Of a stretch of DNA of 64,000 bases, positions 60,831-63,005 are shown piece by piece. Every line of letters starts with the position of its first letter. Position 1 is the first letter of the stretch. The position numbers were made by a program, and so were the translations under genes. The notes under the pieces are model-generated. The model saw nothing but the letters and a program-made list of their open reading frames with translations, was not told where the DNA came from and did no database searches. Location: the NCBI GenBank assembly GCA_016934675.1, contig JAFGSJ010000152.1:29199-93198 (forward strand), read 5' to 3'. The DNA is from a bacterium. Its GTDB lineage: Bacteria; CSSED10-310; JAFGSJ01.

Positions 60831-60957
60831 GTCTAACAGACTTTATCCAGCGTCCACACTTATTACCCCTCGAACACCTCCCGTAAAAGTTTACATTTCT
60901 TTCCACCCATGCTATTGTCGAAACAGTGGAAGCAGGATAAAACTATCTTCGTTAGGC
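60831..60957 (+). other. attC-like site 1 (127 bp)
   Basis: GTCTAAC (RYYYAAC) ... GTTAGGC (GTTRRRY); inner TTTATCCAGCGTCCAC pairs with reverse complement TTTATCCTGCTTCCAC. Confidence 0.65.
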
Positions 60958-60979
60958 CGCACCAGCGGAAGGCAGACAG

Positions 60980-61456
60980 ATGGGCGTGATCTACACCGTG
61001 TATCCAATCGATGATCGAGCTCGCAAAGCGGCGCCCGATATCGGGCTGATCAATCCTCCTGCCGAAGATGGTCGGCACCCGACGCCATCAGAGATCCGTG
61101 CTGTTGTAGGCGATCTTGATGGCTTCAAGGCAAGCTACACGGAACATCCAATCTTCCACAAGCCGTGGCAGGTGATGGTCGAACATGCCCAGGATCCAGA
61201 CAACGGTGGCTGGACACTGATTAACGTATCCGAGTACCTGGGCGAAGACCAGCCTACCGAGATCTGGTTTGAGAAGGGCTGGCCTGATCTCATAATTCGC
61301 ATCATGGTGGGTCTTTCTCGCACGTGCGGTCCTTTGTTCATCCTACCGGACACAGGCGAGGCTGCGCTCGTGGTCCGCCCCGGCGACAATCCGGTGTACT
61401 TGTACGAGAGCTGGGAACACACAAACCCACACTGCGAGAGCGACGATGACTCCTAA
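60980..61456 (+). CDS. Hypothetical protein, likely cassette ORF
   Basis: Starts 22 bp after attC-like 1 and ends 12 bp before attC-like 2. Confidence 0.7.
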   Translation: MGVIYTVYPIDDRARKAAPDIGLINPPAEDGRHPTPSEIRAVVGDLDGFKASYTEHPIFHKPWQVMVEHAQDPDNGGWTLINVSEYLGEDQPTEIWFEKGWPDLIIRIMVGLSRTCGPLFILPDTGEAALVVRPGDNPVYLYESWEHTNPHCESDDDS

Positions 61457-61468
61457 TAACAGGAGGGC

Positions 61469-61549
61469 AGCGAACAAGGCCATGAACCTGACGAAGTCTG
61501 CGGTGCTGCATATGGACGCAACCTTCGCAGGTTATGGCCAGCGTTAGCC
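61469..61549 (+). other. attC-like site 2 (81 bp)
   Basis: GCGAACAAGGCCATGAACCTG...CAGGTTATGGCCAGCGTTAGCC; GGCCAT(G)AACCTG pairs with one extrahelical base. Confidence 0.75.
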
Positions 61550-61566
61550 GCTTTTGGAGCAGCTCG

Positions 61567-62109
61567 ATGCGATACTTCCTGGCTTCAATCGTTCTCCTGA
61601 CAACTGTGACTCTGATCGCGGGGTGCAATCGAACCATGTCTGCTGACGTCAATAAAGTTCTAGACATGAAGGACGATTTCGAGTTGTGCAATGAACTCTT
61701 CAAGCTCATGATCAAGCACTACGGCGAGGACTTCGATGTCTCGAAGTGCAAGGAGAAAGATCAGGCCGTTATCCTCGTGTGGCACGCTTCGGGTATCATC
61801 GACAACGGAGGGTTCCAGTATCTATTTGAGGGCAACTTCAAAGGGGATCCCTACTTCGCTAGGACCGCTGCTGCTTTCAAGACCATCAAGGCGTCCAAAT
61901 GTGCCGAGGCGATTGAGGAGGCCCTGAAACTGTTCCCCTACTCGAAGCCTCCGCAGGACATCAATAAGCGGCTGAAGATATATCAGGCCGTCTCTGCCGC
62001 AAAGCAGGAAGCCATTGATGTGAAGTTCTTCAGCGAAAGCAAAGAGATGATGACGACCCTCGCCAAGTACATCCGCGAGAACCGAGCGGAGTTCAAGCAC
62101 CTAAAATGA
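61567..62109 (+). CDS. DUF4375/DMP19-like protein with lipoprotein-like signal
   Basis: MRYFLASIVLLTTVTLIAGC; IDNGGFQYLFEGNFKGDPYFARTAAAFKTI; starts 17 bp after attC-like 2. Confidence 0.8.
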   Translation: MRYFLASIVLLTTVTLIAGCNRTMSADVNKVLDMKDDFELCNELFKLMIKHYGEDFDVSKCKEKDQAVILVWHASGIIDNGGFQYLFEGNFKGDPYFARTAAAFKTIKASKCAEAIEEALKLFPYSKPPQDINKRLKIYQAVSAAKQEAIDVKFFSESKEMMTTLAKYIRENRAEFKHLK

Positions 62110-62120
62110 GCGAGGGTCGC

Positions 62121-62217
62121 CGCAAACCACCGCATGAAGCTGGCCAGGCAGCCATCCTGGTTCTCCGAGCTTCAACGGCCGAGCAGACGACCCGGCAGCT
62201 TATGCGTGACGTCAGAA
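62121..62217 (+). other. attC-like site 3 (97 bp)
   Basis: CGCAT(G)AAGCTG pairs with CAGCTTATGCG, one extrahelical base; R' core degenerate (GTCAGAA). Confidence 0.6.
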
Positions 62218-62566
62218 CGCACATTCAGCACACTTCGGAGGTCAGTTTTTTCAATTTTTCGATAATGATCTGGGGTCGAGCCCACGGTTGACTGTTGTGA
62301 TTTGTTGCCGCTCGCGTCACGTGTGCCTCCGCTACCCCTGGACGAACGGAAGAAAGGCACTTGACTGGCCTGGGGCGATCTGATAGAAAATGGAACCGGA
62401 AGACGACACTATTCGATCAGTGCCGGTATTAATCCGGCACAAGGACATCCAGGCAATCAAAGGACTATGTGACGATTAGTGTTAGACGCCTATTCGCCGT
62501 TAAAGGCATTATCAGGCAACCTTCTCTACCGCAGATGAGTGAAAGAGATAAAAGACAAGGGGTCAA

Positions 62567-62965
62567 ATGCATCGACTTTTCTACGGCTCATTTCTAATAA
62601 TAATCGCCTTGGCAAGCGCCATCAGCATTGGCACCAGCCGTGTCTTCTCGTGGTTCAATCTTGGAGTTGTCACCATTCTTTTAGCGAAGGGGTTCTTCTG
62701 GGCACGGTCACGTTCAATGGCACCGGACAACTATGAACAATACAAGAACAACTTCATCATCCTGGCGGCGGGTTACTTTATCACGGCGGTACTGTTCGTT
62801 CTCTCTGGTTTTTTGGGGGAGGGTTGGTTCGGTTTCCTCGCTGCACCAGTGTTCGCCACTACTGCTATCGCTATGACTTTCGTGATCCGCACTGCTAATA
62901 AACAACATTCCGCCGTGAAAAGGCTGAATGATATGGAAAGGGACCACCCAACAAGGCGTTGTTGA
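62567..62965 (+). CDS. Small multi-TM hypothetical protein, likely cassette ORF
   Basis: Hydrophobic segments; stop codon lies inside attC-like 4. Confidence 0.65.
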   Translation: MHRLFYGSFLIIIALASAISIGTSRVFSWFNLGVVTILLAKGFFWARSRSMAPDNYEQYKNNFIILAAGYFITAVLFVLSGFLGEGWFGFLAAPVFATTAIAMTFVIRTANKQHSAVKRLNDMERDHPTRRC

Positions 62966-63005
62966 CTACGTCCGGTCTGTCACACCGCCAAACGCTTCGT
63001 TGGGT
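62946..63005 (+). other. attC-like site 4 (60 bp)
   Basis: ACCCAAC...GTTGGGT perfect R''/R' pair; AGGCGTT/AAGCGTT inner pairing. Confidence 0.72.

Follow-up and report, generated by a model that had tools for sequence, protein, structure and literature searches.

A probable integron cassette cluster of three cassettes, with no integrase recognised beside it, in a thinly sampled bacterial phylum

We identified an array of three gene cassettes, delimited by four attC sites, near the right end of the window (the whole stretch of 64,000 nucleotides that was analysed). Neither an integron integrase nor an attI site was recognised adjoining it. A cluster of attC sites lacking an integron integrase is termed a CALIN in the IntegronFinder definition (PMC9024848), and we assign the array to this class with a probability of about 0.9. 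The kind of element is known; what is new is this array, in a phylum that has been thinly sampled. A CALIN-type array had been proposed in the initial annotation of this DNA, and the proposal is supported both by covariance models that match the sites although built from none in the window and by the lack of an integrase in the window. Coordinates are given in Table 1.

Table 1. Features of the array and of its surroundings in the window
Feature	Position	Strand	Description
Genomic island	42710-58648		Held in the tRNA-Ala gene
Tyrosine recombinase ORF	42710-44140		Belongs to the island
tRNA-Ala gene	42743-42815
Direct repeat	42792-42829 and 58610-58648		39 bp, 97% identical; bounds the island
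HEPN-domain ORF adjoining nucleotidyltransferase-domain ORF	58749-59500	-	Looks like a HEPN/MNT toxin-antitoxin pair
Left neighbour ORF	59700-60242	-	180 aa; opposite strand to array; sole relative found is borne on a cassette elsewhere
Third copy of tRNA 3' end	near 60470-60495		Diverged; just left of array
S1, probable attC	60831-60957	+	127 bp; both R boxes canonical; bounds cassette 1 on the left
ORF1 (cassette 1)	60980-61456	+	158 aa; orphan without a recognised domain
S2, attC	61469-61549	+	Best preserved of the four sites
ORF2 (cassette 2)	61567-62109	+	180 aa; DMP19 domain, lipoprotein-type signal
S3, attC with decayed R boxes	62121-62217	+	Second-best match of window
ORF3 (cassette 3)	62567-62965	+	132 aa; stop inside S4
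S4, attC	62946-63005	+	Right end of array; canonical R boxes; third-best match of window
Two long inverted repeats	63076-63246 and 63537-63706		Right of array
Repeat at contig end	63880-64000		Recurs on contigs C134 and C82, 93-96% identical

Structure of the sites and their statistical support

All four sites are found where the initial annotation had placed them, and its count of two canonical and two degenerate box pairs is confirmed. S1 (GTCTAAC...GTTAGGC) and S4 (ACCCAAC...GTTGGGT) are canonical at both ends, S2 (AGCGAAC...GTTAGCC) is degenerate in the 5' box, and S3 (CGCAAAC...GTCAGAA) is degenerate in both. The GTT of R' at the cut point is kept in S1, S2, and S4, and is GTC in S3. The four sites align as R''(7)-spacer(5)-L''-loop-L'-spacer(6)-R'(7), the register of 18 known attC sites from class 1 cassettes, Kovacikia, and Candidatus Thiodictyon, with a second spacer of 5 nt giving a better fit for S4. 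All score higher in the forward than in the reverse orientation. A reversed S1 was rejected for its lower score and the lack of a minus-strand ORF in place, as was an additional attC ending in GTTAGAC near 62482, which has no matching 5' arm.

The attC fold, with its R and L inverted repeats, extrahelical base in L'', and unpaired central spacers, is exact in S2 and S3, partial in S4, and confined to the boxes in S1. In S2 (CAT-G-AACCTG / CAGGTT-ATG) and S3 (CAT-G-AAGCTG / CAGCTT-ATG) the unpaired base follows the third base of L'', the same place as in known attC sites, and the bottom-strand fold of S2 has a z of -4.8. The base is in register in S4, where the helix and the L arms are weak. 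S1 contains a 16-nt inner inverted repeat; its arms have an asymmetry of 4-5 nt instead of a single extrahelical base, and their offset differs from that of known attC sites. The single extrahelical bases attributed to the sites earlier are therefore exact in S2 and S3, less certain in S4, and wrong for S1. The arms of S2 are identical at 37 of 48 positions to those of an attC from a genome of the same phylum with an intact IntI (G003), the spacers AAGGC and GCCAGC being common to both, and those of S1 match a genuine Candidatus Thiodictyon attC at 31 of 48.

An arm-pairing detector trained on the 18 known sites, with all spacings scanned on both strands, ranks S2 (35.5), S3 (25.9), and S4 (18.2) first, second, and third in the window. 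The best single site in 60 shuffled 64-kb windows scored 25.4; a separate earlier set of 20 shuffles contained one maximum of 26.4, which leaves S3, taken alone, at the borderline but not S2. For two co-oriented sites within 2.5 kb, the summed score is 61.4, against a maximum of 36.7 in the 60 shuffled windows. When boxes were required strictly, S4 was the top of the window, at 15.8. The S1 score of 11.6 is within chance, about five sites per shuffled window reaching 11. One true attC of the training set fell to -2.2 when it was withheld, so S1 is not excluded by its low score.

Covariance model R2 was built from 16 attC sites, all outside the window, and R3 from 34 sites of the phylum and of other contigs of the same genome, again none from the window; the two are not fully independent, as the training sites of R3 were found by R2. 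R2 matches S2 (32.3 bits, E=4.3e-5). The three best R3 matches in the 64-kb window are S2 (42.8 bits, E=7.6e-9), S3 (17.5 bits, E=0.037), and S4 (13.3 bits, E=0.48), all on the plus strand and in order; S1 is listed by neither model. Control genomes had no match in 27 of 40 cases for R2 (E <= 0.1) and equally in 27 of 40 for R3 (E <= 0.01). An earlier model, R1, which consisted of the arms with a 4-nt loop, matched S2 with default filters and not with the filters off, and because of this dependence R2 and R3 were built with real loops. Rfam at its gathering thresholds reported only a tRNA. At least two serial attC sites are thus found by covariance models, which are our own and not those of IntegronFinder: S2 clearly, with S3 and S4 second and third. 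S1 has no significant score, and we consider it a probable attC from its position and box sequence.

Cassette genes, their relatives, and other attC sites

ORF1 starts 22 bp past S1 and stops 12 bp short of S2; for ORF2 the distances are 17 bp from S2 and 11 bp to S3. The unit of S3, ORF3, and S4 is not tidy, with ORF3 starting 349 bp past S3. The described pattern of small ORFs that start 17-22 bp after one site or end at the next holds for ORF1, ORF2, and the end of ORF3; it fails at the start of ORF3. No relatives of ORF1 were found in the genome contigs or plasmids searched, and none of ORF2 (DMP19, PF14300, E=3.4e-17) in plasmids or viral contigs. To the eye, the ORF3 product looks like a small membrane protein. 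The GC content is ~54% across cassettes 1 and 2, versus 43-47% to their left.

The sole relative of ORF2 among 393 genomes is a DMP19 protein of genome G068 (28% identity, E = 7e-6). Its ORF (L155, 1384-1839) lies in a regular array, 27 bp past the attC at 1268-1357 and 8 bp short of the attC at 1847-1946. For the left neighbour, the only relative among 196 genomes is an ORF of G089 in a six-site array, where it begins 27 bp past a 129-bp attC and stops 8 bp short of the following one. The left neighbour is therefore of cassette type. A search for an attC belonging to it here found none, so we have not counted it in the array, and its membership is uncertain. The cassette-borne relatives of both ORFs support the array independently.

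The initial annotation had tied its reading to matches by a covariance model and to recurrence of the sites in the genome. Models free of window sites do match, and R3 (E <= 0.02) places attC on six contigs (C68, C157, C70, C130, C146, and C15) besides the window contig, C8. All sites on attC-bearing contigs are less than 5 kb from a contig end, and at most 31% of the assembly lies there. The end of C130 (L142:8021-8107) and the start of C70 (L039:1-87) share an exact 87-bp overlap adjoining attC, which is probably the k-mer length of the assembler; joined, the two contigs have four co-oriented attC sites. C8, C15, C68, and C157 each have over 20 kb of sequence to one side of their attC sites. 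Given that one array has two flanks, there are at least two arrays in the genome. On C157 (L038:1796-4994), a type IIG restriction-modification gene of 976 aa has an attC site on either side, making an unusually large cassette of defence type, and a Mrr_N-domain ORF starts 20 bp past the second attC.

Among eight genomes of the phylum, six have R2 matches at E <= 1, and R3 matches in G001 bring the number to seven. Aconitase, compared in order to place the phylum, showed identities of only 62-71% to a mixture of FCB-group and other genomes. Full-length IntI occurs in G003 and G004. The G003 genome (about 9.2 Mb) has 57 attC sites (E <= 0.01) spread across many contigs, some of them far from contig ends, and encodes two full-length IntI as well as partial ones. 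Several of its sites have an odd R' box, GTTCTTC. On its contig C88 (L017:9829-12421), the IntI gene is on the same strand as the attC that follows, as opposed to the usual divergent layout, which suggests an integron with reversed integrase orientation.

Integrase search and alternative readings

Seven integrases used as queries gave only chance-level matches and the tRNA-island recombinase, so that there is no credible integron integrase in the window, as had been claimed. In the genome assembly, which is 96% complete and fragmented, none exceeds the TIGR02249 cut-off of 265 bits; the best ORFs (82.6, 68, and 63.9 bits) look, by eye, like XerC/D-type and phage-type recombinases. The sequence left of S1, where attI and intI are expected, is assembled for tens of kb. 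To the right of S4, the contig ends after ~1 kb, which is also the right end of the window, the window covering 29199-93198 of contig C8. With the left side and the whole window searched, no integron integrase adjoins the array, and the intI and attI that mark the 5' end of the array in a complete integron were not found there. The Kovacikia integrase has a weak match to the left neighbour ORF (E about 0.006), at the site where intI is expected, and 0 of 2000 shuffles reached its score. We rejected an intI relic in this ORF because its full-length, ungapped G089 relative shows no such similarity; a single-sequence fold (pLDDT 42) was too poor to use.

Only in the window can an integrase be called securely absent, as the fragmented assembly carries attC sites at contig ends. 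With these sites and with intact IntI in the phylum, an integrase missed by the assembly is as likely as its true absence from the genome. The array may be a fragment of at least one complete integron, with the integrase on DNA absent from the assembly or bin, and the name CALIN would then be partly an assembly effect; we put this at slightly less than even odds. In its favour are the crowding of attC at contig ends, the bases shared by C130 and C70, the full-length IntI of G003 and G004, and the known inflation of CALIN counts in draft genomes (PMC9024848). Set against it are the long assembled stretch left of S1 with neither attI nor intI, a right end that breaks off in a repeat other than attC, and the completeness of the genome. 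A much less favoured proposal is that the phylum keeps many small, scattered attC arrays, at least two of them here without an integrase of the genome's own, so that the cassette pool would depend for its upkeep or movement on integrases working in trans or on a different recombinase; we think this improbable.

The extent of the array could also be smaller than we propose. If S1 were a chance hairpin, the true array would be S2 to S4, and ORF1 would lie in the flank or be a cassette that has lost its left site. The score of S1 within the range of shuffles, its lack of a single extrahelical base, and its omission by the covariance models all point this way, whereas its two consensus boxes, long inner repeat, correct place and orientation, resemblance to the Candidatus Thiodictyon attC, and the poor score of a real training site when left out speak for a genuine site, and we regard the shorter array as rather unlikely. 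That all of the sites are chance hairpins, such as terminators or REP-like repeats among ordinary small genes, is barely credible. attC sites are weakly conserved, hairpins are common, and S1 and S4 are weak taken alone, but the joint score far exceeds the shuffle maximum, the register is exact, and the relative of ORF2 is cassette-borne; the R3 ranking and the shuffle test already contradict it.

Proposed history and comparison with known systems

The R' box is where IntI recombines the folded bottom strand of attC, the choice of strand being directed by the first extrahelical base (PMC2727003). On our preferred reading, a CALIN of three cassettes, an integron integrase most likely laid the cassettes in their present orientation via the folded bottom strand of attC, acting when adjacent to the array or in trans. 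S2 appears well enough preserved to be a plausible IntI substrate. With GTT changed to GTC in R', S3 is probably inactive. ORF2 and ORF3 would then form a single unit and could leave only together (S2 x S4); ORF1 could leave alone through S1 x S2. The left side is a graveyard of tRNA-linked island ends with an opposite-strand gene of cassette type, and the right side is a repeated, transposon-like stretch up to the contig end, where the last repeat is probably REP-like or transposase-linked and probably halted the assembly. Both flanks fit a stranded, decaying array.

Annotation based on ORFs cannot see such cassette clusters, and recognition of this one marks ORF1 to ORF3 as mobile accessory genes. 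The same finding led to the attC matches in seven of the eight phylum genomes, one having 57 sites and intact integrases, which makes the phylum a place for studying dispersed cassette arrays.

Like other CALINs, the array has at least two serial attC sites with ORFs between them and no intI nearby; unlike the typical case, one site is decayed and one is weak, and the host phylum is thinly sampled. It shares with the class 1 integron cassettes of plasmids (aadA1, aac(6')-Ib, dfrA) the same R/L register and one unpaired base in L'', but it is chromosomal in setting, with neither resistance genes nor intI1. It resembles sedentary chromosomal integrons in that relatives of ORF2 and of the left neighbour lie between attC sites in the G068 and G089 arrays. 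Those arrays are regular and longer, with five and six sites within 3.5 kb, whereas here there are three cassettes and the sites are irregular.
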